Source: a virus. Taken from it: 27,629 nucleotides of DNA. The stretch is taken from the IMG/VR virus record IMGVR_UViG_3300000115_000141, positions 1 through 27,629 of that record; one strand, given 5' to 3'. Of the stretch, positions 2,478-26,261 are shown piece after piece; the stretch's first letter is position 1, and the number at the start of each line of letters is the position of its first letter. Under the pieces are notes generated by a model that saw nothing but the letters and a program-made list of their open reading frames with translations, searched no databases and was not told the origin of the DNA. A program made the translations under genes and the position numbers.

Positions 2478-2485
2478 TCCGACCC

Positions 2486-3859
2486 ATGGCTGACGACGAC
2501 ATCAGAGGATTGCTAGGATCAGTACAAGATTACTTTGTCAGGGGTGGTCTTGACGAAGACGCACGTTACGTGCTCGGGCCACACGCCTACGAAGGAATGT
2601 CCAAGTTTGCATCACTGGCAAACTTTATTGGTCCCGGCGCGGACATAAAAGACGTTGCTAGTGAATCTGCAAAAGTTATGGAGGGAGACCTCGCAGCTTT
2701 TGCCGGACTTCCTGCTTCACTAGCCATGATGGCCGTTCCCGGATCAAAGAGTGGTGTCCAAGAAGGTGCAGAAGGACTATCTGGACTTTTTTACCGAGGG
2801 TCGTCTAATCTTGACGAACTTGCCGGAAAGTATTCACTTCCAAAGGAAGGCGCGTTAGGTGGTGGTGGCGTGTACGTGACACCAGACACTGACTATGCCT
2901 CCAATTATGCCGTACAGACAGCACTCGGTGAACCAAAGACTGGTGGTTTTGTCGCTCCGCTAAATGTAAAATTTGACAATCCTTTAATTATTGATATAAA
3001 AACAGCGCAAGAAAAAGTAGCACCAGAATTAAAAGTTCTTAAAGCCCTTGGTCTGTCAGATGACAAAGCCGCTGATATGCTTGAAAGCGCCTATGAAAAA
3101 ACAGGTGGTCTTACAAATCAAATTAGCAGCAGGGCAAAAAAACAAGGCTTTGACGGAATTGTTTTGCGAAACGAAGATGGTACAATTCAGGAAGCAATAT
3201 CTTACAATACCCAGAACATACGTTCAGCATTTGAAGAAGTTGTAGATAAAAGTCGTGTCGCCAATCCCCAGAAACCTCCCATTATACGTCTCCGGGGCGG
3301 GGCGAGAAATAGTGATCCAGATCAGAGGGGCTATGCTGAGACCAGAAAAAGCGGGACGGCGGTAGACAGACAAGTACTAAAAAAAGATGATTCAATGTCC
3401 GTCCCGCCTATTGATAATCCTTCTTTAAAGCTGGAAGAATTTGACGCAGGGATGGGGTTTCATCAACTATCTACCCCCGACAACAGCGTTAATTTGATAG
3501 GTGGAACGCCGGTACGAGGGTCGTCAGATTACACCGTATTACACTATGGTGTTGCAGACGAGTCTGGAAAAAATCTTGTCGGAAACGTAAAGCTCCGCCG
3601 AGATGCTACGACTGGTCAGATTAACGGTATCGTTGATATTGAAATTAAACCAGAGCACCGAAAGCAAGGACACGCTAAAAAAATACTCGAAGCGTTACGA
3701 GCCTCTACGGAAGGGGCAGACCTCAACATTTTTGATATTCAGAACACCAAGTATTTTACTAACTATGCAAAAACACTTCCGTCTTATAAAATTAAACAGT
3801 TCAAGAAAGGCGGCTCTGTCGTCGAACGATCTAACAATTACGAACCGAAGGTAATCTGA
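2486..3859 (+). CDS. putative ADP-ribosyltransferase / GNAT-like acetyltransferase fusion
   Basis: 457 aa from the ATG at 2486. The N-terminal ~100 residues are uncharacterised. Residues ~100-250 resemble the ART-PolyVal type of mono-ADP-ribosyltransferase: FYRGSS (102-107), GGGGVYVTPDTDYASNYA (125-142), then LNVKFDNPLI (159-168), GFDGIVLRNEDG (221-232), QEAISY (235-240, candidate catalytic E236) and NIRSAF (244-249). After a Pro/Arg-rich linker, residues ~345-435 look like a GNAT acetyltransferase: a beta strand (VDIEIKPE, 383-390) leads into RKQGHAKKIL (392-401), which matches the acetyl-CoA-binding R-x-x-G-x-A pattern. The tail KKGGSVVER (440-448) recalls tails of other phage proteins. The DNA becomes clearly AT-rich around 2950-3260 compared with terL and portal, suggesting a separate origin. 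It could be a virion-delivered effector, a virion-modifying enzyme, or a degenerate protein. ART fold is fairly likely; GNAT is less certain. Confidence 0.6.
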   Translation: MADDDIRGLLGSVQDYFVRGGLDEDARYVLGPHAYEGMSKFASLANFIGPGADIKDVASESAKVMEGDLAAFAGLPASLAMMAVPGSKSGVQEGAEGLSGLFYRGSSNLDELAGKYSLPKEGALGGGGVYVTPDTDYASNYAVQTALGEPKTGGFVAPLNVKFDNPLIIDIKTAQEKVAPELKVLKALGLSDDKAADMLESAYEKTGGLTNQISSRAKKQGFDGIVLRNEDGTIQEAISYNTQNIRSAFEEVVDKSRVANPQKPPIIRLRGGARNSDPDQRGYAETRKSGTAVDRQVLKKDDSMSVPPIDNPSLKLEEFDAGMGFHQLSTPDNSVNLIGGTPVRGSSDYTVLHYGVADESGKNLVGNVKLRRDATTGQINGIVDIEIKPEHRKQGHAKKILEALRASTEGADLNIFDIQNTKYFTNYAKTLPSYKIKQFKKGGSVVERSNNYEPKVI

Positions 3860-6330: not shown

Positions 6331-7809
6331 ATGGCAATTCAAGACGATATTGTGGCGATGCTGTCGCAAGTCAGTGATGGTGGAAATCGGGCAACGTCCG
6401 CTGGTAAAGAAGGCGAAGATATGTACAGCCGCATATCTGAACTTATTACTGATAAAGACAACATGTATGCAGCCCAGCGAGAACTCGGTCCGCTTTTTGA
6501 TCCGATGCAGTTTGGCAGTCTTGAAGAGCAGATGCGACAAGACCCGCTGACAGGTGGGAGTGTTGCAGATATTATCCGCAAGTATATGGATGATGCCGGG
6601 GACGGCGCAGTTCTTCCCGACACATCTAATGCACGTCCCGACACATCTAATGCACGTCCTCGTTCAAAACCAGATGCTCCTATTATTATTGAAGAGCTTC
6701 CTCCTATTCCAGTTCGGTCTCTGCCCGGTGCAGGTCCGGGCGAGGCCGGGATGATGACGGTGGACGACAACGCCGCCGCCATGCAGGGTCAGGGTATGGA
6801 CGAAATTCGGGAAGAATTTATGTCGAAGTCTCCCCGACTTCAGGAACTTCTGGCTCAAGAATCAATGGATGGTGCCCGAAATGATCCGGAACTTCGTGAA
6901 CGTGCTGCTGATTTACAAATAGCCGCAATTGCTAATATGGAGAAACAAGCCCGTCAGGAAGGTGTCTACGGTTCTCAAGCCGCCCGTCTCCGCGCCGCTG
7001 CCGGTGAAAACACAGGATTGTCTGGAATAGAACTGGCAGGACGTACAGGCCGTGAAGCAACTCCGGAAGATGAGATAAATGCTCTTCTTACGGGTGCCAC
7101 AGCAGGAACGTTTAGCGGCCCAGTTGCTGGACAAATGCTTATCAGAATGTCCGCCCCGTCTATTTCCCGCCTTGCAATGCGTCTTGGCATCGGACGAATC
7201 TCCCCACAAGAACTTGCCCGGAATCCGGTTGTGCGTAAGCAGATTGAAGAACAAATTCGTCTTGCCCTGCCCAAGCCAACTCCGGGAGCACCTTCTTCCT
7301 ATGTCGCCCCAGCTTCTCGTGTAGGTGCCCGTTCTCCGCGTCAGCTAGACGCAGCAAGTGCTGCCAGAGCAGCAGGACGTGGTGAAAAGACCGGCCCAGC
7401 CATTCGTATTGACCCGTCCCCGGCCCAACGACTCGGCTCAACACAGGGCAGTGGTAGCCGGATCGACCAGATTATTAATAGTGGTGGCCCTATCGGAATG
7501 GCCCGGGGCATGTCTGTCCGCGACAACATTCTGCGTAACTACGCCATGATGGCAGATGGTGGTTCTGGATCAGACGCAGCAGATGAAACTGTTTATCAAC
7601 AAATGCGTCGTTTAAAATCTGATTTTGGAAAAGATAAAGCTATTCGTCTGATGCGAGAAATACATCCAGACTATCAATTTAGTGATTCTGGTCTGGTAAT
7701 ACCGCCGGGAGACCCCTCAAACCGTGATCTGTATTCAGATAATGTTAATCAGTTAGGGGTAAATAATGCCCCAATCGAACTTCTCCGAAATTATCTTCGA
7801 AATAAATAA
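6331..7809 (+). CDS. large helical phage protein of unknown function
   Basis: 492 aa. I do not recognise the family. The ATG at 6331 follows AAAAGGA at good spacing. Residues 1-90 are mixed charged helices. A low-complexity Pro/Ser/Arg region contains the exact tandem duplication PDTSNARPDTSNAR. Then come an acidic helical segment (EIREEFMSKSPRLQELL) and an Ala/Arg/Gly-rich stretch. The C-terminal ~70 residues (YQQMRRLKSDFGKDKAIRLM onward) look more compact and are coded by AT-richer DNA than the middle. There is no signal peptide or clear membrane segment. Its place between portal and capsid assembly genes, and its Ala/Gly-rich build, would suit an internal or ejected virion protein, but this is inference. 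Confidence 0.7.
   Translation: MAIQDDIVAMLSQVSDGGNRATSAGKEGEDMYSRISELITDKDNMYAAQRELGPLFDPMQFGSLEEQMRQDPLTGGSVADIIRKYMDDAGDGAVLPDTSNARPDTSNARPRSKPDAPIIIEELPPIPVRSLPGAGPGEAGMMTVDDNAAAMQGQGMDEIREEFMSKSPRLQELLAQESMDGARNDPELRERAADLQIAAIANMEKQARQEGVYGSQAARLRAAAGENTGLSGIELAGRTGREATPEDEINALLTGATAGTFSGPVAGQMLIRMSAPSISRLAMRLGIGRISPQELARNPVVRKQIEEQIRLALPKPTPGAPSSYVAPASRVGARSPRQLDAASAARAAGRGEKTGPAIRIDPSPAQRLGSTQGSGSRIDQIINSGGPIGMARGMSVRDNILRNYAMMADGGSGSDAADETVYQQMRRLKSDFGKDKAIRLMREIHPDYQFSDSGLVIPPGDPSNRDLYSDNVNQLGVNNAPIELLRNYLRNK
6616..6657 (+). repeat. exact 21-bp tandem duplication inside the coding sequence
   Basis: Two adjacent identical 21-base units (6616-6636 and 6637-6657, each starting cccgacacatc and ending gcacgt) encode PDTSNAR twice. 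The length is a multiple of three, so the frame is kept. Perfect identity suggests a recent slippage event. Confidence 0.95.
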
Positions 7810-8248: not shown

Positions 8249-8437
8249 ATGTATTACGAAGACATAAAGAAACAAATAAAATCTCAGATTATTGAGTACG
8301 AGAAACTCCTTGGATCAGGAGCACCAGAAGACTATTCTTCCTATCGTCAATACGTTGGCACCATCTCAGGATTGAAGTGGTGTCAGGATTTGGTCGCACA
8401 AATCCAGAAACGTACAGCGGAAGGAGATGACGACTAA
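8249..8437 (+). CDS. 62-aa hypothetical protein
   Basis: The ATG at 8249 follows CGGAGAACC. The product is a short, mainly helical protein: MYYEDIKKQIKSQIIEYEKL, then a small loop (GSGAPEDYSSY), then a second helix (TISGLKWCQDLVAQIQKR) and an acidic end. It looks like a helical hairpin, a shape found in many small phage assembly or inhibitor proteins. Its stop overlaps the next start (TAATG), so it is probably translated together with the co-chaperonin. No function is assigned. Confidence 0.7.
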   Translation: MYYEDIKKQIKSQIIEYEKLLGSGAPEDYSSYRQYVGTISGLKWCQDLVAQIQKRTAEGDDD

Positions 8438-8856
8438 TGGTAATGGAACCAAAGATGGCAGGAGCCATCAGTAATGCCGACTGGGCACAGGACGATAAAG
8501 TGGCGGACCCGTCCCCGCTCCCGGTAATTCCGGGCTACCGTATCTTGATCAGACCTCTTCAGGTTCAGAACAAGACAAAAGGCTCGATACTACTCCCTGA
8601 CAGTTTTCAAGATGACATCAACTACCTGACCACGGTAGGTCGTGTTGTTGCTGTCGGCGATCTTGCATACGAAGACAGTGAAAAGTTTTCAAAAGGACCG
8701 TGGTGCAAGGTCGGAGATTTTGTCTGTTACGGCAAGATGACCGGGAACAAACTTCGGTACAAGGGCGTAAACTTTATCCTGCTCTATGATGATCAGGTAA
8801 TCATGAAAATTGAAGACCCGTCGGATGTTGATCCGATGTTTAATATCGCCTCATAA
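8437..8856 (+). CDS. GroES-like co-chaperonin
   Basis: 139 aa, longer than bacterial GroES (about 97) because of an N-terminal extension of ~30 residues. The Cpn10 fold is readable: GYRILIRPL (33-41) is the first strand; NKTKGSILLPDS (45-56) is the mobile loop that docks on GroEL, with ILL at the place of the usual hydrophobic tripeptide; VGRVVAVG (67-74) is the next strand; then VGDFVCYGK (92-100) and YKGVNFILLYDDQVIMKIED. It would cap the host GroEL chamber to help fold the coat protein, as gp31 does for T4. It sits directly before the scaffold and coat genes, which supports that role. Start at 8437 overlaps the previous stop; ATG 8443 is an alternative. Confidence 0.8.
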   Translation: MVMEPKMAGAISNADWAQDDKVADPSPLPVIPGYRILIRPLQVQNKTKGSILLPDSFQDDINYLTTVGRVVAVGDLAYEDSEKFSKGPWCKVGDFVCYGKMTGNKLRYKGVNFILLYDDQVIMKIEDPSDVDPMFNIAS

Positions 8857-13929: not shown

Positions 13930-14473
13930 TTACATTCTCGATATTCAAAAATGGACCCGTGAAGTTCTGTCTGTCCCTTCTGAAGAGTTGGGCGGACAGC
14001 CTCCGTGCCCTTACGCACAAGGCACGTGGGATGCTGGACTTGTCGCTGTCGGTATTTGCCACAGTCTGGATGATGTCACTGACGCTCTTGATTTTTTTCC
14101 CGCTAGTAGTAGTGATGTTTTCATCGCTGTTCTTCCTGATGTTGAAAGACCTTCTGCTGAAGAACTGGCCCGTTATGTGGAAGAAAAGAACACAGGTCTG
14201 GTGGCAGAAGACATGTGGCTTATGGCGTACCACCCAGAAGACGATCCATCCGAATACGGATTAGATTATCTGGACGTTGAGTGGGAGCCTGTAGTACCTG
14301 AAGAGTACAGCATGATCTTTATTCAGTATCTTTCAAAGTTGAGGGACGCATCTTATAATCTTGAACAGCAGGGCTATTATGATAAGTGCCCATGGGGGAC
14401 GTACCGTGACCTCGTCCATCGCCGTAACGAGAAAGCAGTAGCTCATGACAAGTTCAGGCCAGACGACATTTGA
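13907..14473 (+). CDS. conserved phage protein with CPYA motif, function unknown
   Basis: 188 aa from GTG 13907, chosen because GGAGG (13894-13898) lies 8 bases upstream; GTG 13892 is an alternative adding five residues. The region WTREVLSVPSEELGGQPPCP followed by YAQ is the hallmark of a family I recognise from cyanophages and other marine phages ('W...VLS....LGG.P.CP(F/Y)A'). Further on are DVFIAVLPD, EELARYVEEKN, HPEDDP and a helical C-terminus (DLVHRRNEKAVAHDKF). It is soluble, with Cys in CPY and later in DKCPWG. No function is known to me. It overlaps the basic microprotein by 23 bases and the next gene by 29. Confidence 0.75.
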   Translation: MQGRPVSDYILDIQKWTREVLSVPSEELGGQPPCPYAQGTWDAGLVAVGICHSLDDVTDALDFFPASSSDVFIAVLPDVERPSAEELARYVEEKNTGLVAEDMWLMAYHPEDDPSEYGLDYLDVEWEPVVPEEYSMIFIQYLSKLRDASYNLEQQGYYDKCPWGTYRDLVHRRNEKAVAHDKFRPDDI

Positions 14474-15116
14474 TCTTACAATTGACGATGTGATCGAACA
14501 GGCTTTTGAGCAGGTCGGCGGTCAGCCTATCAGCGGTGAGGAAGCCCGGTCGGCACGTATATGTCTTAACCTGCTGATGACAGAGTGGCAGAACCGTGGT
14601 GTTCTCCTCTGGAAACTTGCAGATACCCCGGTGACTGTCAGCACGTCTGTCACCGAATATACTCTTAATTCAGATATTATTGATAGTCTCCAGACTACTA
14701 TTACTGTGAACGGTAATGATCTGGAGATGAATCGAATTACTTATCAAGACTATATGAAGCTGCCTGACAAGTCACAGACAGGTCGTCCCACACAGTTCTC
14801 GTTTCTCCGGGGGAAAGACAATGTCAGCATGGTTGTCTGGCCGACTCCTGAACAGACCTACACCATGAACCTACTGGCAATGACTCGGATACAGGATGTG
14901 ACAGCCTCCGCGATCCAGACATCTGATATGCCATTCCGTTTTCTCCCCCCGCTTGTTGACGGACTGGCGTACAAATTGTCATCCCGCCGTCCCGGCATTG
15001 ATTCAGGAAGGATCGGCTTTCTCAAGCAGCAGTACGAGGAATCGTTTGCATTTGCTCTTGAAGAAGATCGTCAGCGTACGTCGATGTTTATCCGTCCCCG
15101 TCTTGGACCTCTCTGA
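14445..15116 (+). CDS. head-completion / tail accessory protein (P22 gp4-like)
   Basis: 223 aa. The start MTSSGQTTFDLTIDDVIEQA is typical of the family that binds under the portal ring, closes the filled head and offers a platform for the tail. It is followed by RICLNLLMTEWQNRGVLLWK, where the W-Q-N-R-G region is well conserved, then a beta-rich middle (TVSTSVTEYTLNSDIIDSLQ) and RPTQFSF and MVVWPTPEQTYTMNL. Length and helix-then-beta order match P22 gp4-like proteins. It overlaps the upstream gene by 29 bases; the alignment of its N-terminus with family members supports this start. The stop overlaps the zinc-ribbon gene. Confidence 0.8.
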   Translation: MTSSGQTTFDLTIDDVIEQAFEQVGGQPISGEEARSARICLNLLMTEWQNRGVLLWKLADTPVTVSTSVTEYTLNSDIIDSLQTTITVNGNDLEMNRITYQDYMKLPDKSQTGRPTQFSFLRGKDNVSMVVWPTPEQTYTMNLLAMTRIQDVTASAIQTSDMPFRFLPPLVDGLAYKLSSRRPGIDSGRIGFLKQQYEESFAFALEEDRQRTSMFIRPRLGPL

Positions 15117-15403
15117 TGGCTACAGGTCGGCGGTCAAACGCTATATGCGACAGGTGTGGGTGGCGGTGTAAGTACATCGAGCTTCTCAATGAAGTTGAGG
15201 TAGGTGTCTGGGTCTGCTCAGAATGTTATGACGGGGCATTCAATGCAGTTAATCATCCACAGAATATGACGAATTCGGACACCACAGATGATCCATCTCT
15301 TGATCATCCCCGACCTGATACGACGGCAGATACGTCAGCAACAGATGATTCGTGGACGCCAGATATGTCGTCTCCGTCGTATCATAACGGACAGGAAGAT
15401 TAG
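15116..15403 (+). CDS. small zinc-ribbon protein
   Basis: 95 aa. Residues ~10-45 contain CDRCGWRCKYIELLNE and VCSECYDGAF: two C-x2-C pairs (plus an extra Cys in the first knuckle) separated by a short hairpin, the plan of a zinc ribbon, followed by NHPQN. Similar small zinc-ribbon proteins occur between neck genes in many phages. The last ~45 residues are low-complexity Asp/Thr/Ser/Pro, probably disordered. It starts on the gp4-like stop codon (TGATG). A structural or assembly role at the neck is inferred from position. Confidence 0.75.
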   Translation: MATGRRSNAICDRCGWRCKYIELLNEVEVGVWVCSECYDGAFNAVNHPQNMTNSDTTDDPSLDHPRPDTTADTSATDDSWTPDMSSPSYHNGQED

Positions 15404-15405
15404 TC

Positions 15406-16062
15406 ATGGCACTTAACTACGCACAGCTACGAACCAACATAATTGAATCTACGGAAAATGACGGGGCAGAGTTTGAGTCTCAGCTTGATCAGTTTATCGG
15501 ACGTGCAGAAACAAGGCTGACTATTGATATTGACGATGCAGGTCTGACCCAGCATCAGTACACACAGGTTGTTGCGTCTGATCCGTTCCTTGGATTGCCG
15601 ACCGGATTTACGATTGTCGAGTCTGCCAACATAACGGCTGACGGGACACGTATCAATCTGCTTAACAGAAACGTAGACTTTATTGCCGACTACTGGCCGG
15701 TACGTACATCTGTCGGGACACCAAAGTATTACGGTCTCTGGGACGACAATACCATCATCGTCGCCCCTACACCTGTCTCAGCATTCCCGATTGAACTGGC
15801 GTTTGTTGTGGCACCGACGGCCATAACTTCTGTTAACCCGACAAACTATTATACTGCTGAAACACCTAACGCCCTGTTCTATGCGTGTATGGTCGAGGCA
15901 GAGCTTTTTAACAAGAACTACGAAGTTGTTAAAATTTGGTCTGAACTTTATACTAAAGAAATTGAATTGCTCCGTAACCGTGCCCGTCGCGCCCGTCGTG
16001 ATGATCTGGAGCCGCGCAACCAACAGGCAAACAACGCCAATACACTTACCGGAGGCTCATAA
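15406..16062 (+). CDS. phage neck/adaptor protein
   Basis: 218 aa; AGGA precedes the ATG at 15406. The N-terminal helical part, LNYAQLRTNIIESTENDGAE then LDQFIGRAETRL, and the beta-rich middle, LPTGFTIVESANI then PKYYGLWDDNTIIVAPTP, are the usual layout of adaptor proteins next to gp4-like head completion proteins. The C-terminal third is a long helix ending in an Arg cluster (LLRNRARRARRDDLEPRNQQ). It would link portal complex and tail. The stop overlaps the next start (TAATG). Confidence 0.75.
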   Translation: MALNYAQLRTNIIESTENDGAEFESQLDQFIGRAETRLTIDIDDAGLTQHQYTQVVASDPFLGLPTGFTIVESANITADGTRINLLNRNVDFIADYWPVRTSVGTPKYYGLWDDNTIIVAPTPVSAFPIELAFVVAPTAITSVNPTNYYTAETPNALFYACMVEAELFNKNYEVVKIWSELYTKEIELLRNRARRARRDDLEPRNQQANNANTLTGGS

Positions 16063-16487
16063 TGGCTATTACTTCAGGAATTTCTATCTCGTTCCGTTCT
16101 CAGATTATGCTTGGTGAGCACGATCTTGATACGGACTCAATTAAACTTGCACTCTATTCTAGTTCTGCTTCTCTGTCGGACGGTACCACGGTCTATACCA
16201 CGTCGAACGAAGTTGTCGGGACAGGCTATTCAGCCGGTGGTGTGGTGCTGACAGGCATTGATGTTACGACTGACTCGTCAGTGGCTGTTGTATCAATCAC
16301 AGATGCGGTTGTCACAGCATCGACGATTACGGCACGTGGTGCCCTTATTTATAATGCATCTCAGGCAAATAAAGCAATTGCCGTATTTGATTTTGGTGCA
16401 GACAAATCTTCTACCGCAGGTGACTTTACAATTCAGTTCCCGGCTGCTGCTGCCGCAACGGCGATCATCCGCATTAAATCTTCGTAG
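16062..16487 (+). CDS. conserved beta-rich virion protein
   Basis: 141 aa with GGAGG upstream of the ATG at 16062. The pattern MAITSGISISFRSQIMLGEH, LALYSSSASLSDGTTVY, NEVVGTGYSAGGVVLTG, ARGALIYNAS, AVFDFGADKSSTAGDF and a hydrophobic C-terminus (AAAAATAIIRIKSS) is one I know from many phage genomes, usually between neck proteins and the first tail fibre. The fold appears all-beta. Its exact place in the virion is not known to me; tail or neck is likely. Confidence 0.75.
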   Translation: MAITSGISISFRSQIMLGEHDLDTDSIKLALYSSSASLSDGTTVYTTSNEVVGTGYSAGGVVLTGIDVTTDSSVAVVSITDAVVTASTITARGALIYNASQANKAIAVFDFGADKSSTAGDFTIQFPAAAAATAIIRIKSS

Positions 16488-16496
16488 GACCGGCCT

Positions 16497-19235
16497 ATGG
16501 CACTGGTTCTTAAAGACAGAGTCAAGGAACAGACTACAACGACAGGAACAGGTACCGTTACTCTGGGCGGCGCTGTATCTGGATTTGATACATTTGCATC
16601 TGTCGGGGACGGCAATACAACTTACTATGCCATTGTCAGCCAGTCTGCCAATGAATGGGAAGTTGGTCTTGGGACGTACACAGCATCTGGGACGACATTG
16701 TCCCGTGACACCATCCTTGAATCATCAAACTCTGACGCGGCTGTAAACTTCTCAGCCGGGACAAAGGATGTTTTTGTTACCTATCCGGCAGATAAATCTG
16801 TGTATGCAGATGCGGCTGGGACAGTAAATGCAGGTGCTATTGCTGCTACATCGCTTACCCTAACTACTGATCTTGCTGTAGCAGATGGTGGTACAGGAGC
16901 CTCGTCGTTAACGGACGGTGGTGTACTTTTAGGATCAGGAACTGGTGCTATTACTCCGATGGCCGTCCTTACTGATGGGCAGATGATTGTTGGTGATGGT
17001 TCAGGTGATCCAGTTGCGGAGAGTGGCGCAACGCTGCGTACGTCGATTGGCGTTGACCCCGCAGGAACAGACAACTCAACAAACGTCACCCTTGCAGGAT
17101 CGCTAGACTATCTGACGATCATTGGGCAGGAGATTACTCGTGGTGCGGTTGTACTAACAACTGATATTTCAGGAACACTTCCGATTGCCAACGGCGGTAC
17201 TAACGCTACCAGCGCGGGTGCGGCGCGAACCGCTCTTGGTGCAGCAGCATCTGGGGCGAACTCTGACATCACCTCGATTACAGGACTGACAACAGACCTG
17301 ACCGTTGCACAGGGTGGCACTGGTGCTGGGACGTTTGCAGCCAACGGAATTTTGTTTGGCAACGGCACGAGTGCGATTGGCGCTACTGCCGTAGGAACTA
17401 GTGGTCATGTTTTAACATCAAATGGGTCTGGGGTAGCTCCGACATTCCAAGCCGCTGCTGCTGGTGGTGCAACAGACATTGATGGCCTGTCTGATGCCTT
17501 AACCAATTCCAGCGGCGGTACTGTTGGCCTCGGAACTGGCGCTCTTGCGGCAGACGACGGTTCTGCGAACCTAAATACTGCACTGGGTTTTGACGCGTTA
17601 AATGATGTAGTTACTGGTTCGCGAAATGTTGCGGTTGGTCATTCTGCGGGATCAAAGGTGACGAGTGGAAACAATACATTTATTGGGGAGAGGGCGGGAC
17701 AGCTCCTCGTCACCGGCTCGGAGAACACGGCAGTAGGCGGTGCTGCGATGATTTCAGCCATCACAGGTAACGGAAATTCTGCGTTCGGTTACGGGGCTTT
17801 AGGCGGCGGCAGTGGCACTTCAATGGGTCAAAACGTCGGGGTAGGTTACCTCGCCGGTTATCGTGTCACTACTGGTGATGGAAATACGATTGTTGGATAC
17901 GATAACGGTGCTACCAATCTTTTAACTACGGGCAGTAACAACATTGTTTTGGGCAATCTGACAAGTGCCTCTAGTGCCACAGTATCGAATGAAATCACGC
18001 TTGGCAACACTAGTGTAGATAAGTTCCGCATTCCCGGTATCAATTTTATAATCAAAGATTCTACTGCGACTGAGGATTACGTTCTTACAGTCGATGCTTC
18101 CGGTGAAGCGGGTTGGGAAGCTGCTGGTGGTGTAACAGACATTGATGGCCTGTCTGATGCCCTGACTAATTCAAGCGGTGCAACCATTGGCCTCGGAACT
18201 GGTGCTCTTGCAGCAGACGATGGCAGCGCGAACAACAATACTGCCTTGGGGTATCAGGCACTTAATGACGCTACAACATCCTCGCGTAATGTAGCCGTTG
18301 GTTATCAGGCACTGGACAATCTGACTACAAGTTTTGGCTATAGCACAGCCGTTGGTTATCAGGCTCTCGACGCAGTAACGACTGGATACGGCAATACTGC
18401 AATTGGCGACAGTGCTTTGAAGACTATCACCACCACACATCACAACACTGCTCTGGGCCGAGATGCTGGTAGTTTAGCTACTGAATCAAATTCCGTCATG
18501 ATCGGGAAGGGTGCCGGTAAAAAAGCCATGACCGGCAGTGTAGTAATCGGGTATGATGCGCTTGAAAGTTCCTCCAACTCCAAGACTGCGACTGCGATAG
18601 GCTACACTTCGCTTAAAGCTAACACAAACGGGGATAATAATACTGCGGTAGGCTATGAAAGTTTAATCCTCAATACAACAGGCAGTAAGAATACCGCACT
18701 CGGTTATACAGCAGGTAATACTACAACTACTGGTTCCAACAATACATTGCTTGGCTATGATGCTGAAGCCTCTAGTGCCACAGTATCGAATGAAATCACG
18801 CTCGGTAATGCTTCAGTAACATCGTTCCGTATACCGGGTGTGGGCTTTTATAGCCTCAATGGCAATGTGGGTATTGGGACATCGGCTCCTGCCAAGCAGC
18901 TATCAATTACCAAGTCTGCTCTTGCCACGATCAATACTCTAACTGATGGGGCAACAATTACTCCTGACTTTGATGCAGGACAAAACTTCTCTGTCACTCT
19001 TGCCGGTAATCGAACACTGGCTAATCCAACAAACATTGATGCAGGTCAGACAGGTTCAATCTTTATAACGCAGGATGGAACAGGCAGTCGTACACTGTCG
19101 TTCGGCTCGTACTGGGACTTTGCCGGTGGTACAGCGCCTACACTATCCACAGCCGCAGGTGCTGTTGATCGAATTGACTACATCGTCAGGACAGGAACGT
19201 CCATACACGCAGTAGCTACTCTCAACTTATCATAA
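16497..19235 (+). CDS. long tail fibre with YadA-head-like repeats
   Basis: 912 aa. The N-terminal ~105 residues (ALVLKDRVKEQTTTTGTGTV, YYAIVSQSANEWEVGLGTYT, KDVFVTYPADKSVYADA) form a module found at the start of many phage fibres, probably the virion anchor. Residues ~120-330 are Gly/Thr/Ala-rich fibre shaft (DGGTGASSL, NGGTNATS). From ~345 to ~780 come repeated NTALGYQAL / NVAVGYQAL units of about 14-20 residues, like the left-handed beta-roll of YadA-type trimeric adhesin heads. The block TDIDGLSDALTNSS onward occurs twice, and TSF/DKFRIPG segments close both copies. Residues 802-912 form a C-terminal domain shared with the fibre at 23536. It should be a homotrimeric receptor-binding fibre. 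Confidence 0.85.
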   Translation: MALVLKDRVKEQTTTTGTGTVTLGGAVSGFDTFASVGDGNTTYYAIVSQSANEWEVGLGTYTASGTTLSRDTILESSNSDAAVNFSAGTKDVFVTYPADKSVYADAAGTVNAGAIAATSLTLTTDLAVADGGTGASSLTDGGVLLGSGTGAITPMAVLTDGQMIVGDGSGDPVAESGATLRTSIGVDPAGTDNSTNVTLAGSLDYLTIIGQEITRGAVVLTTDISGTLPIANGGTNATSAGAARTALGAAASGANSDITSITGLTTDLTVAQGGTGAGTFAANGILFGNGTSAIGATAVGTSGHVLTSNGSGVAPTFQAAAAGGATDIDGLSDALTNSSGGTVGLGTGALAADDGSANLNTALGFDALNDVVTGSRNVAVGHSAGSKVTSGNNTFIGERAGQLLVTGSENTAVGGAAMISAITGNGNSAFGYGALGGGSGTSMGQNVGVGYLAGYRVTTGDGNTIVGYDNGATNLLTTGSNNIVLGNLTSASSATVSNEITLGNTSVDKFRIPGINFIIKDSTATEDYVLTVDASGEAGWEAAGGVTDIDGLSDALTNSSGATIGLGTGALAADDGSANNNTALGYQALNDATTSSRNVAVGYQALDNLTTSFGYSTAVGYQALDAVTTGYGNTAIGDSALKTITTTHHNTALGRDAGSLATESNSVMIGKGAGKKAMTGSVVIGYDALESSSNSKTATAIGYTSLKANTNGDNNTAVGYESLILNTTGSKNTALGYTAGNTTTTGSNNTLLGYDAEASSATVSNEITLGNASVTSFRIPGVGFYSLNGNVGIGTSAPAKQLSITKSALATINTLTDGATITPDFDAGQNFSVTLAGNRTLANPTNIDAGQTGSIFITQDGTGSRTLSFGSYWDFAGGTAPTLSTAAGAVDRIDYIVRTGTSIHAVATLNLS
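17471..18802 (+). repeat. internal duplication within the long tail fibre gene
   Basis: A 28-base sequence is repeated exactly at 17471-17498 and 18134-18161 and opens two similar blocks encoding TDIDGLSDALTNSSG and GLGTGALAADDGSAN. A 35-base sequence is repeated exactly at 17967-18001 and 18768-18802 and lies near the end of each block (encoding ASSATVSNEITLGN). The fibre head was therefore built by duplicating a block of about 0.7 kb. Confidence 0.85.
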
Positions 19236-19245
19236 GGAAAAATCA

Positions 19246-19470
19246 ATGGATAATGAAGTAGAAACACCGGAGCAGATTGCACAGCATTATACGTCTGCCA
19301 TGGATAGCGTCACGCTGCTCGAAAAGGTTGCCGCTGATCCTGACGCATACACGGATGATCCGACAGTCGTGGAGCGAAACGTCGAGCATCTTGAAATTGT
19401 GGTTGGCTGGGATTTTTGGACGGACGAAGACCTGACACCGTTTCATAATGCAATCGCATCTAATACTTAG
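19246..19470 (+). CDS. small acidic conserved phage protein
   Basis: 74 aa; AAGGAAAAAT precedes the ATG at 19246. It is acidic and helical with RNVEHLEIVVGWDFWTDEDL followed by TPFHNAIAS at the C-terminus, a pattern seen in small proteins next to tail fibre genes in other phages. It may be a fibre-associated or assembly protein; the role is unknown. It sits between two fibre-type genes. Confidence 0.7.
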   Translation: MDNEVETPEQIAQHYTSAMDSVTLLEKVAADPDAYTDDPTVVERNVEHLEIVVGWDFWTDEDLTPFHNAIASNT

Positions 19471-19478
19471 GAATAACA

Positions 19479-20561
19479 ATGTTTGGGATGTCGTCGTTCT
19501 CAGAACTTCCGTTTTCAACGGAACAGAGTCAGACGGCGGCTGTAGCATTAGTAGGACAGTCTCTTGATGCGGTAACGGGTACACTTACCATTACCGGCAA
19601 GGGACTTGTTACTCTTACCGGACAGTCAGTAGATATTCTTGAAGGTACAGTTACTACTGCTATTTCAGCAAGTGTTTCTCTTACCGGTCAATCTCTCGAC
19701 ATCGATGAAGGTACAGTTACAGTTACTACTAAAGCTGTAATTCCTCTTACCGGACAATCTCTCGACATCGATGAAGGCACCATTACAGTTGCTACTGAAG
19801 CTGTAATTCCTCTTACCGGACAGTCCCTCGACATTAATGAAGGTACAGTTACTACTGATATTTCAGCAGATGTTCCTCTTACCGGACAATCTCTCGACAT
19901 CGATGAAGGCACCATTACAGTTGCTACTGAAGCTGTAATTCCTCTTACCGGACAGTCTCTCGATATCGATGAAGGCACAGTTTCAATTGTCATACATCAT
20001 ACGGTTACTCTTACCGGACAATCTGTTGATGCTGATACTGGAACTATTTCTATTTCTGGGGAAGCGTCTACCACTTTAACTGGTCAGTCAGTTGATATTG
20101 TTGAAGGCACACCAACGGTTGCTATAAATACGTCTGTTCCTTTAACGGGACAGTCTCTCGACATCGATGAAGGCACAGTACAAATTCTTCAGTCAGTTGT
20201 AGTTACGCTGACAGGGGAGTCTGTTGATGCTGATACTGGAACTATTTCTATTTCTGGGGAAGCGTCTACCACTTTAACTGGTCAGTCAGTTGATATTGTT
20301 GAAGGCACACCAACGGTTGCAGCAGATGCTACTGCCGTAGTAACAGGACAGAGCCTGTCTACCGAGTACGGTACGCTGACAATTACCGGTACAGCGAACG
20401 TCTTTCCAACTGGGCAGTCTGTTGATATAGTACTCGGACAATACCCTGTTTGGATTGTCGTCCCTGTCGGACCAGACGATGTTTGGACGACGGTATCGAC
20501 AGGAGCAGCAGATGCGTGGACCACGGTAACTGCCGGTCCCGGAAACACATGGATAAATTGA
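19479..20561 (+). CDS. tandem-repeat structural protein (fourteen 22-residue TGQS repeats)
   Basis: 360 aa. After a 22-residue N-terminus, residues 23-330 are fourteen units of exactly 22 residues with consensus PLTGQSLDIDEGTxTVxxxAxI. Strand-turn-strand spacing and invariant G at the turns suggest a repetitive beta structure (solenoid, or stacked small beta domains). The last 30 residues carry two DxWTTVxxG motifs (DDVWTTVSTG, DAWTTVTAG) and end in NTWIN, perhaps a capping or anchoring segment. Similar Gly/Thr/Val repeat proteins occur in marine phage tail regions without known function. The location among adhesins suggests a virion surface or host-binding role. Confidence 0.75.
   Translation: MFGMSSFSELPFSTEQSQTAAVALVGQSLDAVTGTLTITGKGLVTLTGQSVDILEGTVTTAISASVSLTGQSLDIDEGTVTVTTKAVIPLTGQSLDIDEGTITVATEAVIPLTGQSLDINEGTVTTDISADVPLTGQSLDIDEGTITVATEAVIPLTGQSLDIDEGTVSIVIHHTVTLTGQSVDADTGTISISGEASTTLTGQSVDIVEGTPTVAINTSVPLTGQSLDIDEGTVQILQSVVVTLTGESVDADTGTISISGEASTTLTGQSVDIVEGTPTVAADATAVVTGQSLSTEYGTLTITGTANVFPTGQSVDIVLGQYPVWIVVPVGPDDVWTTVSTGAADAWTTVTAGPGNTWIN
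19545..20468 (+). repeat. 66-bp tandem repeat array, 14 units
   Basis: The array encodes the 22-residue units. Some copies are identical at DNA level over long runs: 85 bp at 19741-19825 and 19873-19957 (offset 132, two units), and 101 bp at 20022-20122 and 20220-20320 (offset 198, three units). Others differ by many synonymous changes. Long perfect copies indicate recent unequal recombination or gene conversion, so unit number may vary between relatives. Confidence 0.95.
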
Positions 20562-20574
20562 GGCGTAACGACGC

Positions 20575-22959
20575 ATGGTATTTCAAAACGACATTCTGGC
20601 AGGTGCATCAGGCAGCATTCCTACATATCAGATTGATCAGTCGATCCGGTTTAATTCAGCCGACTCTCCTTATCTGACAAAGACATTTGGGGCTGATGGC
20701 GGGGATACATGGACCTTCTCTCTATGGATTAAAAGAGGAAAGATAACCAGCGGAGGTAACTGGTACTTTTTCAGCGAGGCGGGGGGCAGCGGCATCGGGT
20801 TTGTGGACGGCACAGACAAACTTCGTTTCTATAATGCCTCGTCTGTCGTGGATAGCACTCAGGTGTTTCGTGATGTCGGCGCGTGGTATCACTTTGTGTT
20901 TTCCAACAATGCCGGGACAGTGACGATCACCGTGAACAACACGGCGGTTGAAATTGGTTCGACGACAGCTACCCTGTTCAACCGTAACAACGCTTGGCAC
21001 ATCGGTAGCTACAACGATGGGGGCAACAACTTCGATGGCTACATGGCCGAGATGCATTGGGTTGACGGCACTGCACTAGCCCCCACCGACTTTGGCGAGA
21101 CCAACGACGATGGTGTATGGGTGCCGAAAGAATACACCGGATCATACGGCACCAACGGCTTCTACATCACAGGCGAGGACAGTGCTGATCTGGGCGCAGA
21201 TTACTCCGGCAATGGCAACGACTTCACCTCGTCAGGATTAACTACTTCTAGTCAGGTAAATGATTCACCGACTGACAATTATTGTGTTATGAGTCCTCTT
21301 GTTCAAAATCGTGATGGTGGTATAACAAACAGTGATGGCATTAGGGCTGCTAATCTTGAGCTATATAGACCTAGCGCCAGTGCAAACTCTTTTGGTTCTG
21401 GCACTATGGCTGTCTACGGCGGAGTAGGCAGTTCAAAACTGTATTACGAAGTTTATACAACTTCGTATCCCGGCGGTAATGTTCTTCAGATGTATATTGA
21501 AGAAGCTACTAATTCTAGCAATAGTCAACCAACAAATTCATTCGGCCTTAATCAGCGACACACAACAAGCGCATACAGGATATTTGTTTATCCGGGCGGC
21601 GATGAAACACCCGCATCGTGGACTTCAGAATTTGGTCAGGGTGTTTATGTTGGACTTGCTGTGGATTTTGCCAATGATGTAATTTCTGCCAATGTCGATG
21701 GTACAGAAATTTTCTCGTATGATGCAACAGAACTTGCAGCATTGTCGGGTATTACTACTGACACATTCGCAGGACGCTGGTGGCGGCCAAAGATTCAAGT
21801 TGCTAACGATCAGCCAACGACAATTGATGTTAATTTCGGCCAGAATGCCTTCCAGAACGCCCCGACAGGTTATGTCGGATGGTCAACGTCTGCAATTTTA
21901 ACGCCGACGATCAAGGACGGCACGGCTAACTTCCAGACAACGCTGTATACGGGCAATGGCACAGCTATTGGCTCTGGTGGTAAGGCGGTATCTCAGAGTG
22001 AGAACAGCACATTCCAGCCTGACCTTGTGTGGATTAAAGAGCGAAATGGAGCAGCAGATCACGCTTTATATGATGCTGTTCGTGGCACTACAAAAGACCT
22101 CGCTTCTAATAATAATAGTACAGAAACAACTGAAACTGAAGGTGTAACAACATTTGGATCGGCTGGATTTACTGTCGGTAATCTTGCCAAGGTAAACACC
22201 AGCAGCGACACTTATGTTGCATGGCAGTGGAAGGCCAACGGCAGCGGCAGCAGCAACGAAGACGGAACGATCAACACTACTGCAACCTCTGCAAATACAA
22301 CGGCTGGGTTCAGCATGTCCACCTACACAGGCAACGGCTCTGCAAGTCAGACAGTTGGACATGGGCTAGGTGTTACGCCCAGCGTAGTCCTAATTATGCC
22401 TCGCAGTAACGGCGATCACAAGTTGATCTCAAACTGGGAGTCCGGCGTTACAGCGTTCACCGAGAAGCTGCTCTTGAACGATATTCAGGCCGCAGATTCT
22501 ACAGGCACTACCCAGATTATCGGAGGGTCTTCCACCACGTTTACAATTGGCACTGACCCCGGCATCAACGGAAGCGGAAGAACCTACGTTGCCTACTGTT
22601 GGGCCGAAGTCGAAGGCTACAGCAAAATGGGGACGTACACCGGCAACGGGAGTACCGACGGCCCCTTTATTTTTACGGGTTTCAAACCTGCTTTTGTCCT
22701 GTTCAAAAAAACAAGTGGAACAGATTCATGGGAACTTTTTGATAATACACGCCCCGGTTATAATGCTACTGGTCTTGGGTTACTTCCAAATACTACGGCG
22801 GCTGAAGCAACCGGACGTAATATTGATATTTTATCAAATGGTATTAAGCAGCGAAATACCAATGGTACTACAAACGAATCCGGTAACACTTACGTCTTCA
22901 TGGCATTTGCCGAACACCCCTTTGGAGGCGATGGTGTCGCCCCTGCCACGGCTCGATAG
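20575..22959 (+). CDS. LamG/SPRY-like carbohydrate-binding tail protein
   Basis: 794 aa. Residues ~20-175 look like a LamG/concanavalin-type jelly roll (IRFNSADSPYLTKTF, WTFSLWIKRG, WYHFVFSNNAGTVTITVNN, GYMAEMHWVDG). A linker with YSGNGNDFTSSGL and QVNDSPTDNYCVMSP follows. Residues ~275-435 resemble a B30.2/SPRY-type domain (KLYYEVYTTS, GVYVGLAVDFANDVISANVD, IDVNFGQNAF). Residues ~445-790 hold two related segments starting LYTGNGTA and TYTGNGSA with PDLVWIKER and PAFVLFKKT; I believe this matches the DUF7483 type. Base composition shifts sharply near 21240, at the junction after LamG, indicating mosaic assembly. It probably binds host surface glycans. Confidence 0.75.
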   Translation: MVFQNDILAGASGSIPTYQIDQSIRFNSADSPYLTKTFGADGGDTWTFSLWIKRGKITSGGNWYFFSEAGGSGIGFVDGTDKLRFYNASSVVDSTQVFRDVGAWYHFVFSNNAGTVTITVNNTAVEIGSTTATLFNRNNAWHIGSYNDGGNNFDGYMAEMHWVDGTALAPTDFGETNDDGVWVPKEYTGSYGTNGFYITGEDSADLGADYSGNGNDFTSSGLTTSSQVNDSPTDNYCVMSPLVQNRDGGITNSDGIRAANLELYRPSASANSFGSGTMAVYGGVGSSKLYYEVYTTSYPGGNVLQMYIEEATNSSNSQPTNSFGLNQRHTTSAYRIFVYPGGDETPASWTSEFGQGVYVGLAVDFANDVISANVDGTEIFSYDATELAALSGITTDTFAGRWWRPKIQVANDQPTTIDVNFGQNAFQNAPTGYVGWSTSAILTPTIKDGTANFQTTLYTGNGTAIGSGGKAVSQSENSTFQPDLVWIKERNGAADHALYDAVRGTTKDLASNNNSTETTETEGVTTFGSAGFTVGNLAKVNTSSDTYVAWQWKANGSGSSNEDGTINTTATSANTTAGFSMSTYTGNGSASQTVGHGLGVTPSVVLIMPRSNGDHKLISNWESGVTAFTEKLLLNDIQAADSTGTTQIIGGSSTTFTIGTDPGINGSGRTYVAYCWAEVEGYSKMGTYTGNGSTDGPFIFTGFKPAFVLFKKTSGTDSWELFDNTRPGYNATGLGLLPNTTAAEATGRNIDILSNGIKQRNTNGTTNESGNTYVFMAFAEHPFGGDGVAPATAR

Positions 22960-22969
22960 GAGAAGAACA

Positions 22970-23536
22970 ATGTGGACATATAATGGTAAAGTAATTAAAG
23001 AAGGCCGGGCATGGACGGATGATAACGGTGTCCAGCATCCGGCCAACTGGGGTATCTGGTCTGAGGACGAGAAGGTTGCTCACGGTCTTGTCTGGGTAGA
23101 TTCCCAGCCACAGCCTGACAGTCGTTTCTATTGGTGGTCCCAGAACTCTGATGGTACATACACCAGCACCGAACGTGCGCTGGAGGATGTGAACGAGGTT
23201 GACGACAACGGCGACCCGCTTCTGGACGCTGACGGAGTTCAGACGGTAACTCTCGGTCTAAAATCTCAGTGGATTGCCCAGACAAAGCAGACACAGGGCA
23301 GTCTTTTGTCTCAAACTGACTGGGCGTATACTAGGAAGCAGGACACAGGCACTGCTGTTCCCACAGATATTCAGGAGTATCGGGACGAGGTTCGTCTGGC
23401 ATCAGATAGCATTGAAAATCAGATTAGTCAGGTTGTTAATCTTGATGCTTTCAAGACTCTATTTGAAACACCTGTTGATGGTGACGGCATCCCGACGGGC
23501 AACGCCCCGATCTATGACTGGCCGGAGACAATTTAA
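22970..23536 (+). CDS. tail fibre assembly-like protein
   Basis: 188 aa from the ATG at 22970, with AGGAG at 22958-22962. The N-terminus (TYNGKVIKEGRAWTDDNGVQ, HPANWGIWSEDEKVAHGLVW) and the C-terminal helical part, LLSQTDWAYTRKQDTGTAVP with DIQEYRDEVR, are typical of proteins next to fibre genes; the 'L..TDW...R..g..vP..i..YR..vR' run resembles tail fibre chaperones. The longer open frame upstream overlaps the lectin-type gene in another frame and does not read like protein. It probably helps fold or attach an adjacent fibre. Stop and next start overlap (TAATG). Confidence 0.7.
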   Translation: MWTYNGKVIKEGRAWTDDNGVQHPANWGIWSEDEKVAHGLVWVDSQPQPDSRFYWWSQNSDGTYTSTERALEDVNEVDDNGDPLLDADGVQTVTLGLKSQWIAQTKQTQGSLLSQTDWAYTRKQDTGTAVPTDIQEYRDEVRLASDSIENQISQVVNLDAFKTLFETPVDGDGIPTGNAPIYDWPETI

Positions 23537-24450
23537 TGACTGCTACGTACACCACCCGAATCAGGCTGACCAAGCAAGGAACCGGCGATAATGACTCAAC
23601 GTGGGGCGTAGTCCTGAATGATGAGGTTATTGACCTTACTGATTATGCTATTGCCGGATACACCACAATTAGTCTAGCAGCCGGAGATGTCAGCCTGACA
23701 ATTAACGATGGGGCGGCTGATGAGGCTCGTTCTGCAATGCTCGAACTTACCGGGACACTGACAGGAGATAGGGGTGTATACCTCCCAACAAATATTAGCA
23801 AAAGTTATATTGTTAAAAATGATACGTCCGGGGCATACAGTACAACTGTTCTAATTAACGGAGGGACTGGTTCTGCTATTCCGCAAGGAGCGTCTGTTAT
23901 TGTTTTCACAGATGGTACTACGGTTACTCCGGCAACAGACTCGACAGGTCTTGGGCTTGGCACAGCAGCAGAGCTAAACTTCGGAACATCTATTAACGAG
24001 CTTATCCCTGTATCTTCGGCTGATACCAGATATGCAAACGTGTCTTCTGACGAGACAATTACCGGGGCGTACACGTTCACATCAACAACGTCTTTTAATA
24101 CTACAGAAGTTATTGCATCTGCTACTCAGGCGTATTCAAAACCAGTCTCGGTGGCAGTCGCATCATCGGCTGTGTCTCTTGATTTTTCGACAGGTAATAA
24201 CTTTACAACTATTCTGAATGGTAACGTGTCTATTGCAAATCCGACCACCCCGCAGCCGGGTCAGTCAGGAATTATTTATATCCGACAGGACGGGACCGGT
24301 AGCAGGACAATGTCATTTAATAGTAACTGGGACTTTGCCGGAGGAACCGCACCTACACTTTCTACTGCTGCAAGTGCAGTCGATGCTCTGATTTATAATG
24401 TCCAGACATCGACGGCTATTAGTGCATTCGTACAACAGAATTTGAGTTAA
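23536..24450 (+). CDS. second tail fibre protein
   Basis: 304 aa. The N-terminus, TTRIRLTKQGTGDNDSTWGV then LNDEVIDLTDYAIAGY, followed by ARSAMLELTGTLTGDR and a VIVFTDGTTV strand, matches the common virion-anchoring module of phage fibres. A short shaft (about 140-200) contains ADTRYANVSSDETITGAYTF, a motif seen before fibre tips. Residues 204-304 are homologous to residues 802-912 of the long fibre upstream (shared core QDGTGSRT, WDFAGGTAPTLSTAA, AVD), so both end in the same tip or trimerisation domain. Likely a short fibre complementing the long one. Confidence 0.75.
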   Translation: MTATYTTRIRLTKQGTGDNDSTWGVVLNDEVIDLTDYAIAGYTTISLAAGDVSLTINDGAADEARSAMLELTGTLTGDRGVYLPTNISKSYIVKNDTSGAYSTTVLINGGTGSAIPQGASVIVFTDGTTVTPATDSTGLGLGTAAELNFGTSINELIPVSSADTRYANVSSDETITGAYTFTSTTSFNTTEVIASATQAYSKPVSVAVASSAVSLDFSTGNNFTTILNGNVSIANPTTPQPGQSGIIYIRQDGTGSRTMSFNSNWDFAGGTAPTLSTAASAVDALIYNVQTSTAISAFVQQNLS

Positions 24451-24452: not shown

Positions 24453-26261
24453 ATGGCAGGAGTTCTCTCAGAACTTACATTCGCCGCCCCCGGATTTAAT
24501 CGGGAGAACACCCGGTATGCCGAACAGGGCCACTGGTACGACGGTGACCATGTCCGCTTCCGTGACGGTACCCCTCAGAATATACGAGGATACGAGCGTC
24601 GTGGTGCTATTTTTGACGGGACACCGCGAGACACAATTACATGGGCTGATTTTAATTCATCACGTCTGATTGGCTTTGGTACTGAGAAAAAACTGTACCT
24701 GTACGAAGGCGGCCTAAATTACGACATCACGCCTATTGTATCTGTCGTATCTGTTACCAACGCTCTTAACACTGTGACCGGGTCAACCCGTATTGTTGTG
24801 TCGGCCACCGGCATCGGTGTTGAAGACGGTAACTATGTTGCCTTCACATCACAGACAGTTACGGTAGGTGGCAACATCTTCCTGACAACAATTGGTGACG
24901 CGTACGAAGTATCAGTAATCGGTGCCGGATCATTTGCCGTGGATGTTTCAACAACCGCAGCAGCAACATCAGCATCAGCAGGTGGGGACATCACTATTCA
25001 CCGGCTGCTCCCGGCAGGACCATCTGTATCTCAGCCCGGCTTTGGTTGGTCGGCAGGTACTTACGGATTGTCTACGTACGGGACGCCCCGGACAACATCT
25101 AACATCACGGTAAACATCAGGCAGTGGAGTCTTACCAACTGGGGTGAAGACCTTCTGGCAAATCCTCGTGGTGGACGTATCTATCAGTGGGATGCAACCG
25201 GGGCTAACAGTGCAGAGACCCGTGCAGTACTAGTCACCGCCTCGCCGTCAATTAACAATTCTATTCTTATTACCCCGGACAGCCAGTTTGCAATCAGTCT
25301 GGGATGTACCGATCAGGCAGGAGATTACGATCCTCTTCTGGTACGCTGGTCTAGTCAGGAAGACTACAACGATTGGACGGCCTCTGCGACCAACACAGCA
25401 GGGTCTAATCCGCTCGGGACAGGATCACAGATTGTTGGTGGGATGCATAGTCGTCAGGCTGTTATGATCTGGACAGACACGGCAACCCATACGATGCAGT
25501 ATGTTGGTGGTCCTTTTGTCTTCCGTTTCCGACACATCGGTGACAACACTGGACTTATTGCCCAACACGCCGCAACAGAATTTAATGGTATCCCATTCTG
25601 GATGGGTGAGGATAACTTCTTTGTCTGGCAGGGTGGGGCTGTCCAGACTCTTGACTGTACTGTCCGTCGTTATGTTTATGACAACATAAACTTTACACAG
25701 CAAGACAAGATTTTTGCGGGGATTAACGCGGAGTTTAACGAGATTACATGGCTCTACCCATCAGCAGGTTCGCTGGAGTGTGACTCGTACGTCAGCTACA
25801 ATCCTCTTGAAAACTATTGGGTCTACGGGACTGGTACGTTTACAACGTGGGCAGACAGGGGAATCTACGACACTATCATTACTGGTGGTGCTGATAGCTA
25901 TCTGTACAATAACGAGCCGCAAGATGTTTACACGGCTAACGGTCAGCCGCTCGTCTCGTACCTTGAGTCTGCATCGTTTGAAATTGAGTCGGGCAATAAA
26001 ATGATGTTGATCAGAAGGCTGGTCCCTGATGTTTCAATTTCTTCTGGTGGGGATGTGTCATTCACCATTAAGACAAAGAGGTACCCACAGGCTACTGAGG
26101 AGACAGTAAAGGGTCCGTATACTATTCAGCCGGGGACAGAGAAGATTGACTTCCGTGCCCGTGGACGACAGGCCCGTATTAGAATTGACTGTTCAGTAGG
26201 TGGGACAGACTGGAAGTACGGTTCGATGCGTCTCCAGATACAGCCTGACGGTGGTCGATAA
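24453..26261 (+). CDS. tail tube / DNA stabilisation-like protein (possible P22 gp10-type beta-propeller)
   Basis: 602 aa. The N-terminus SELTFAAPGFNRENTRYAEQ, then WYDGDHVRFRDGTPQNIRGY, is followed by repeated blade-like beta segments (LIGFGTEKKLYLYEGG, WSLTNWGEDLLANPRGGRIY, AVMIWTDTATHTMQYVGG, NEITWLYPSAGS). It ends in a strand-rich domain (DFRARGRQARIRIDCSVGG, SMRLQIQPDGGR). The 'WxxxDxLxANPRGGxIYxW' type motif recurs in short-tailed phage proteins. The overall plan, many short strands reading out measured values plus a C-terminal beta domain, resembles P22 gp10, which plugs the channel under gp4. The structural role is fairly sure; the gp10 equivalence is inference. Confidence 0.65.
   Translation: MAGVLSELTFAAPGFNRENTRYAEQGHWYDGDHVRFRDGTPQNIRGYERRGAIFDGTPRDTITWADFNSSRLIGFGTEKKLYLYEGGLNYDITPIVSVVSVTNALNTVTGSTRIVVSATGIGVEDGNYVAFTSQTVTVGGNIFLTTIGDAYEVSVIGAGSFAVDVSTTAAATSASAGGDITIHRLLPAGPSVSQPGFGWSAGTYGLSTYGTPRTTSNITVNIRQWSLTNWGEDLLANPRGGRIYQWDATGANSAETRAVLVTASPSINNSILITPDSQFAISLGCTDQAGDYDPLLVRWSSQEDYNDWTASATNTAGSNPLGTGSQIVGGMHSRQAVMIWTDTATHTMQYVGGPFVFRFRHIGDNTGLIAQHAATEFNGIPFWMGEDNFFVWQGGAVQTLDCTVRRYVYDNINFTQQDKIFAGINAEFNEITWLYPSAGSLECDSYVSYNPLENYWVYGTGTFTTWADRGIYDTIITGGADSYLYNNEPQDVYTANGQPLVSYLESASFEIESGNKMMLIRRLVPDVSISSGGDVSFTIKTKRYPQATEETVKGPYTIQPGTEKIDFRARGRQARIRIDCSVGGTDWKYGSMRLQIQPDGGR

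Follow-up and report, generated by a model that had tools for sequence, protein, structure and literature searches.

An in-register 22-residue repeat protein encoded among the tail-fibre genes of an SU10-type phage and its relatives

A gene for a protein built of in-register 22-residue repeats, designated REP (19479-20561; 360 aa), lies within the tail-fibre cassette of a genome fragment from an uncultured phage. REP probably serves as a structural component of the tail-fibre apparatus in a short-tailed phage of the SU10 type, with conserved ends as anchors, an exposed beta-rich rod and a length set by misaligned recombination. The fragment, hereafter the window, is the whole 27,629-nt stretch that was analysed, from IMG/VR virus record IMGVR_UViG_3300000115_000141, which is classed among the linear records in IMG/VR terms; all window features described below lie on the plus strand. 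A fixed register, differences in unit number, concerted change of units, conserved synteny and conserved ends with a variable middle were all observed. In the proposed mechanism, the N-terminal peptide and the GQYPVWIVVPV/W-repeat end would anchor REP in the virion or on a partner fibre, and the beta-rich units between them would form an exposed rod or stalk, the length of which would be set by the unit count. Misaligned homologous recombination, by unequal exchange or gene conversion, would add, remove or overwrite whole units, and would change the length and surface sequence of REP with frame and fold unbroken. Such a mechanism is ordinary for tandem repeats; the family is new.

REP was identified as an open reading frame whose homologues have conserved ends. 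It begins with a conserved 22-residue peptide (MFGxSSFSELPFST; 19479-19544), defined by alignment and found in eight of the nine relatives compared, where it was 57-100% identical. The peptide is followed by an array of 14 units, each 66 bp or 22 aa long (19545-20468), which was detected by TRF with scores up to 608. An initial annotation of this DNA had described fourteen in-register units, and all 13 spacings counted from nt 19545 were indeed 22 residues, with the qualification that 13 units are full and the 14th is half-degenerate. Only the first half of unit 14 is a repeat unit; its second half is the motif GQYPVWIVVPV (20436-20468), which closes the array and was delimited by conserved columns in the alignment. 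The first ten residues of this motif were invariant in 14 aligned sequences, and loci L032-L034 carry one change there. The W-rich C-terminus (20469-20558) was defined by its W spacing, with W-W steps of 11, 11 and 11 when the W of the motif was counted. The proposal that this ending is a second, distinct repeat was correct, as its period is 11 residues versus 22 for the array.

Relatives of REP were collected by scanning contigs. The window protein detected 15 loci in viral contigs and the alignment detected 19, including four new contigs, while a scan of genome contigs added one locus, L036. This short contig is a fragment of a closely related phage; it was assigned to an uncultured MAG labelled Aureispira and is possibly misbinned. 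A divergent relative, L035, gave 44 loci as query, its own contig included (L042). The resulting set held 62 sequences, the window and 61 loci, with L035, L083 and L084 left out. Forty of the 62 were kept, the 22 dropped being near-duplicates and L074; these 40 still hold close relatives, and one of them, L003, is incomplete.

The 22-residue register was maintained across the family. Unit spacing in the 40 proteins was 22 in 302 of 308 cases; three spacings were 23 and the rest (45, 46 and 294) were gaps. The decoder that produced these values is blind to spacings under 22, and a second decoder, based on a 14-column core and permitting any spacing of at least 14, returned 299 of 308 spacings at 22 and none shorter. 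Glycine was near-invariant at unit positions 5 and 13 (97% and 99% of 348 units). Unit number varied from about 4 to 16 across the 40 proteins, although the decoders disagreed by one unit in some and all loci are assembled contigs, in which tandem arrays can be collapsed. The window has 14 units, L036 has 11, L004-L008 have eight, and L009, L010, L014-L016 and L032-L034 have five. The W tail advanced in steps of 11 only (one to five steps) in 30 of 35 proteins, the exceptions being L041, L044 and L046 with one step of 10, L069 with a single step of 15, and L077 with none. REP of the window has the sequence marks of the family: the 22-residue period, two near-invariant glycines eight residues apart, and the period-11 W repeat. 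By these marks, the 22-residue TG-repeat/W-tail proteins are a broad and poorly catalogued phage family, defined here.

Neither the window protein nor the scanned relatives had a convincing match in Pfam, PHROG or NCBIfam. The best NCBIfam match, a KGR RiPP model, scored 19 bits where the cut-off is 50, and the best Pfam match had E=0.14; both were attributed to chance or composition. The W tail of L053 passed the cut-off of the Pfam Spt5 nonapeptide-repeat model (26.5 versus 25.4 bits), which was taken as composition. PHROG matches (best E=9.3e-5 for the window protein and 2.2e-6 for L036) were short and to groups of a function unknown to PHROG, and L009 and L053 gave weak matches to the tape-measure profile phrog_16297 through their W tails. 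Among the titles listed in literature searches, none concerned a phage repeat protein of this kind, from which absence from print is not claimed, and these searches brought up no virion proteomics or microscopy of any family member.

DNA identity between the units of REP ranged from 36 to 100%, and the exact 85-bp and 101-bp copies reported beside diverged units were present as described. The 101-bp block occurs at 20022-20122 (copy A) and 20220-20320 (copy B), a shift of 198 bp or three units, and the 85-bp block occurs at 19741-19825 and 19873-19957, a shift of 132 bp or two units. As a control, synonymous codons were permuted with the protein held fixed, and whole-unit shifts were scored in 200 shuffles. 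The longest exact copy in the shuffles was 29 bp, and none of the 200 reached 85. Because the shuffles gave at most 29 bp, the copies in REP are recent or homogenised and were not imposed by the protein sequence.

Comparison with close relatives pointed to exchange between units. Unit order is common to the window and L003 over the portion present in L003, which is truncated by the contig end. Copies A and B of the 101-bp block differed from one another at 0 of 101 positions in the window and at 1 of 101 in L003. Between the window and L003, the A copies differed at 3 of 101 positions and the B copies at 4 of 101, and three of these substitutions were common to A and B. It is very unlikely that the same three substitutions arose independently in both copies, and homogenisation between units three apart, after the split of window and L003, would explain the concerted change. 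A Gln/Glu difference between the copies immediately beyond the block persists in both the window and L003, so the homogenised tract must have been short. The earlier suggestion of recombination between units that keeps the register was thereby supported by the same three substitutions in both 101-bp paralogues. At six sites in the 85-bp tract, L036 agrees with L003 while the window has the base of the other copy, and among sites at which L036 and L003 agree, the window differed at 6 of 80 inside the tract versus 1 of 60 outside. These counts are, at most, suggestive of a second 85-bp copy (19873-19957) overwritten by the first in the window lineage, with a polarity that is not firm.

REP lies within a cassette of fibre genes. 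The window carries genes for small and large terminase, an SU10-type portal (PF23899, E=2.5e-9), a GroES-like cpn10, a capsid protein and two SU10-type adaptors (14445-15116 and 15406-16062, together 14445-16062; PF24175, E=1.1e-16 and 5.4e-10), followed by the fibre cassette; families of the SU10 portal and adaptor are both present. Upstream of REP are genes for a phrog_644 protein (16062-16487; PHROG match), a tail-fibre protein of 912 aa with conserved ends and a divergent middle (16497-19235; phrog_23837, virion structural, and phrog_4636, tail spike) and a 74-residue product of a small ORF (19246-19470) with homologues in L008, L036, L077-L079, L081 and L082. Downstream are genes for a virion/fibre protein with a lectin-like Laminin_G_3 domain and DUF7483 (20575-22959; the LamG protein), a protein that weakly resembles tail-fibre assembly proteins (22922-23536, with the start chosen by us; phrog_4912, E=1.3e-4), a second tail-fibre protein (23536-24450; phrog_12796, tail fibre, E=4.8e-7) and a virion structural protein (24453-26261; phrog_3287) that is, by position, a candidate tail nozzle. 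A homologue of the phrog_644 protein in Gordonia phage Sixama is annotated as a minor tail protein. Because its gene sits in this cassette, we infer that REP is exposed on the virion surface. The two window fibres (16497-19235 and 23536-24450) have their last 89 residues in common (62% identical), a C-terminal domain on different bodies.

The position of REP was conserved in the wider family. Among 41 loci examined, with L074, L083 and L084 left out, the phrog_644 gene lay 6-50 nt upstream of REP in 36, and in 30 of these 36 a domain homologous to the N-terminus of the second window fibre (23536) lay 12-119 nt downstream. Both neighbours were present in 30 of the 41 loci, an arrangement that is typical of the family but does not define it. 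L077-L079, L081 and L082 had no phrog_644 match upstream, and four of these have at most 1.1 kb of upstream sequence. The window subgroup departs from the typical order in that REP is not directly between phrog_644 and the fibre, and, in the window itself, the LamG and fibre-assembly-like genes follow REP in the same cassette. Within 18 close relatives, a fibre gene with the 16497 N-terminus lay between phrog_644 and REP in 16 (L003 and L036 have too little upstream sequence), and the LamG gene directly followed REP in 16 (L015 is cut and L036 differs). The stretch from REP to the structural protein is largely replaced in L036, where, of the window genes in that stretch, only the N-terminal domain of the second fibre was recognised (72% over 130 aa). 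The L036 cassette carries different genes, one of which has a collagen-like Gly-Pro stretch.

The window has SU10_portal and SU10_adaptor families in common with the SU10-type podophage tail (Kuravirus). As given in the available text of PMC9509320, gp11 of SU10 is the adaptor, gp12/13 and gp16 are fibres and gp17 is the nozzle; the fibre genes of the window likewise lie between the adaptor and candidate nozzle genes, as the SU10 numbering suggests. Unlike the window phage, SU10 is not described as having a 22-residue repeat protein in the available text of that paper. Phage tail fibres and tailspikes whose shafts are beta-helical or built of repeats resemble REP in their conserved ends, variable body and cassette position.

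A direct tblastn search of named phages with the window protein gave no match, as the low-complexity filter probably masks this query, and relatives were used as queries. The wider-family query, with the low-complexity filter, identified members in at least 4 of 50,697 records: DSL-LC04, HTVC023P, a Manatee Spring phage and 023Pt_psg01. All four proteins are annotated as hypothetical. When the family profile was applied to four named-phage records, it matched HTVC023P gp68 (E=4.5e-15), 023Pt_psg01 (E=1.1e-11) and, weakly, HTVC027P (E=8.8e-4), and gave no REP match in Roseobacter phage CRP-902, where the phrog_644 gene adjoins a fibre. The homologous repeat proteins of Pelagibacter phage HTVC023P (gp68, QGZ17697.1), 023Pt_psg01 (URG13121.1) and DSL-LC04 (WJZ48131.1) adjoin tail or fibre genes, and their units are more diverged than those of REP. 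Unlike REP, the DSL-LC04 protein and HTVC027P gp68 have several interspersed GWG-type elements. REP of DSL-LC04 lies directly between the phrog_644 and fibre neighbours, as does the weak match in HTVC027P. HTVC023P gp68 lies directly before a 'putative tail protein', so that only the downstream fibre-like gene is adjacent, and the phrog_644 homologue is about 9 kb away.

Divergence within the cassette was concentrated in particular segments. Between the window and L004, the adaptors, phrog_644 protein, second fibre and structural protein were 92-98% identical, whereas the REP body was 55% identical between ends at 71% and 88%. The first fibre had ends at 90% and 76% and a middle at 34% (over 81 of 671 aa), and the LamG protein was 46% identical. 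As far as these alignments indicate, conserved ends with divergent or replaced middles match the behaviour of host-recognition cassettes. In L076 (3363-4763), a Laminin_G_3 domain (E=2.7e-16), of the same lectin-like family as in the LamG neighbour gene of the window, lies between the few recognisable repeats and hints at an adhesive role for the family. It is possible, though speculative, that the proteins are a widespread family of adhesive stalks. Recombination would then adjust their reach in discrete increments of 22 residues, so that phage populations would have a standing pool of fibre lengths, and lectin domains could be inserted into the stalk.

The greater divergence of the REP body than of its ends would also be expected of a variable surface whose unit sequence is shuffled by recombination, perhaps favoured by changes of host or receptor, with length as a by-product. 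Overwriting of units in place with their number kept, as in L007 compared to L005 and perhaps in the 85-bp tract, agrees with such a display. We nevertheless consider it unlikely, as ordinary homologous recombination suffices and no diversification machinery was named in a Pfam scan of 19 proteins of the window, itself a fragment. The L007 protein (5001-5681) has eight units like that of L005, but in place of units 3-6 it seems to carry a pair that was duplicated internally; exact copies two units apart reach 40 bp.

REP length was found to differ by whole units among close phages. L053 and L054 are 99.9% identical, with 1.2-kb flanks 100% identical; they differ by 66 bp, or 22 aa, in the W tail (REP of 434 and 412 aa) and by nearby substitutions. 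L049 and L053 have nearest flanks that are 98.7% identical upstream (1.2 kb) and 97.4% identical downstream (1.07 kb), and their REP proteins of 258 and 434 aa differ by 176 aa, or 8 x 22. L049 has nine units and L053 has 16, plus a longer W tail. Of 22 pairs whose upstream and downstream flanks were each at least 98% identical, 21 had REP proteins of equal length, window and L002 included, although these pairs share members and are not independent. As judged from these comparisons, unit-number change happens over lineage time and is not fast or rampant. The suggestion that protein length may change was supported by near relatives (97-99% identical flanks) that differ by whole units, while the 'ongoing' recombination of the initial annotation holds over lineage time and not as a rampant process, since 21 of the 22 closest pairs have the same length.

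The equal lengths in these 21 pairs, together with the strict register, could also reflect a molecular ruler, as first suggested, in which some virion part has to match a partner in length, the number of units determines that length, and the number is therefore fixed for each phage. L049 and L053, which differ in unit number, also differ distally in the next fibre, a point in favour of such a ruler. However, the lengths of REP and the downstream fibre were unmatched (258 and 870 aa in L049, 434 and 765 aa in L053, 324 and 1213 aa in L048), and in the five relatives with eight units the interval from the phrog_644 gene to REP ranges from 2125 to 3563 nt. Furthermore, the downstream fibres of L053 and L054 are 100% identical while REP is 434 versus 412 aa, although this difference lies in the W tail. 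Arrays and neighbouring fibre genes thus vary in length independently of each other, and a ruler is disfavoured as quite improbable, with other partners still conceivable. The downstream fibre of L049, L053 and L048 keeps its N-terminal part, while its distal part and length (870, 765 and 1213 aa) are changed.

Short-read assembly might itself have made the repeat copies or unit numbers, as every locus comes from an assembled contig and assemblers are known to have difficulty with exact copies of 85-101 bp. This is very improbable given that an identical array is present in contig L002, where 6 of 11,080 bases differ from those of the window, none of them within the REP ORF, that L003 and L036 have much of the same unit order with substitutions of their own, and that L053 and L054 differ by nearby substitutions besides the 66 bp. 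Curli repeats are similar in length to the 22-residue unit, yet a secreted, curli-like amyloid subunit is extremely unlikely, as REP has a fixed place among tail genes and the window protein and nine relatives had no curlin family among their Pfam matches with E as high as 5, in a search whose HMMER filters remove most matches with E above about 0.1. Curli genes do occur in HTVC023P-type pelagiphages, according to the available text of PMC9599517.

The fold of a tail-fibre REP was assessed by structure prediction. The AF2 model of the window protein was all-beta, with about two strands per unit and a pLDDT of 57.9, and was best around residues 71-130, the site of near-identical units; for a relative with diverged units the pLDDT was 40.2. 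The structural matches of the weak window model were beta-helices (Z up to 24.7), tailspikes among them. According to the available text of PMC11795689, AF2 over-predicts solenoids for near-perfect repeats; given this bias and the weak model, the beta-helix Z-scores were not taken as proof. In contrast to known tail fibres and tailspikes, REP has a fold that is a tentative prediction: the family profile had no sequence match to solved structures up to E=1, L050 matched them only at E of at least 0.22, and a Foldseek search of BFVD yielded nothing at E of 1e-3 or below. At pLDDT values of 57.9 and 40.2, the beta-solenoid is no more than a candidate fold. That the register runs unbroken across diverged units nevertheless favours an ordered, periodic structure over a loose linker.

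Genes of the fibre cassette decide much of phage host range, and many are unannotated. The 22-residue register and 11-residue W tail allow hypothetical proteins to be named, one from a cultured SAR11 phage included. L049, L053 and L054 are natural length variants in close phages and could be used to ask whether REP length affects adsorption; adhesion as the function of REP and any selection for length are conjectural.

Other features of the window were noted. Between the terminase and portal genes, the ORF at 2411-3859 resembles a polyvalent-protein ADP-ribosyltransferase and a GNAT acetyltransferase, below the curated cut-offs. The GroES-like co-chaperonin gene (8437-8856; PF00166, E=4.3e-11) lies in the head cluster, and such a gene is also annotated in HTVC023P, HTVC027P, 023Pt_psg01 and CRP-902. 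A perfect 21-bp tandem repeat of 2.1 copies is present at 6615-6659, inside the ORF at 6331-7809.
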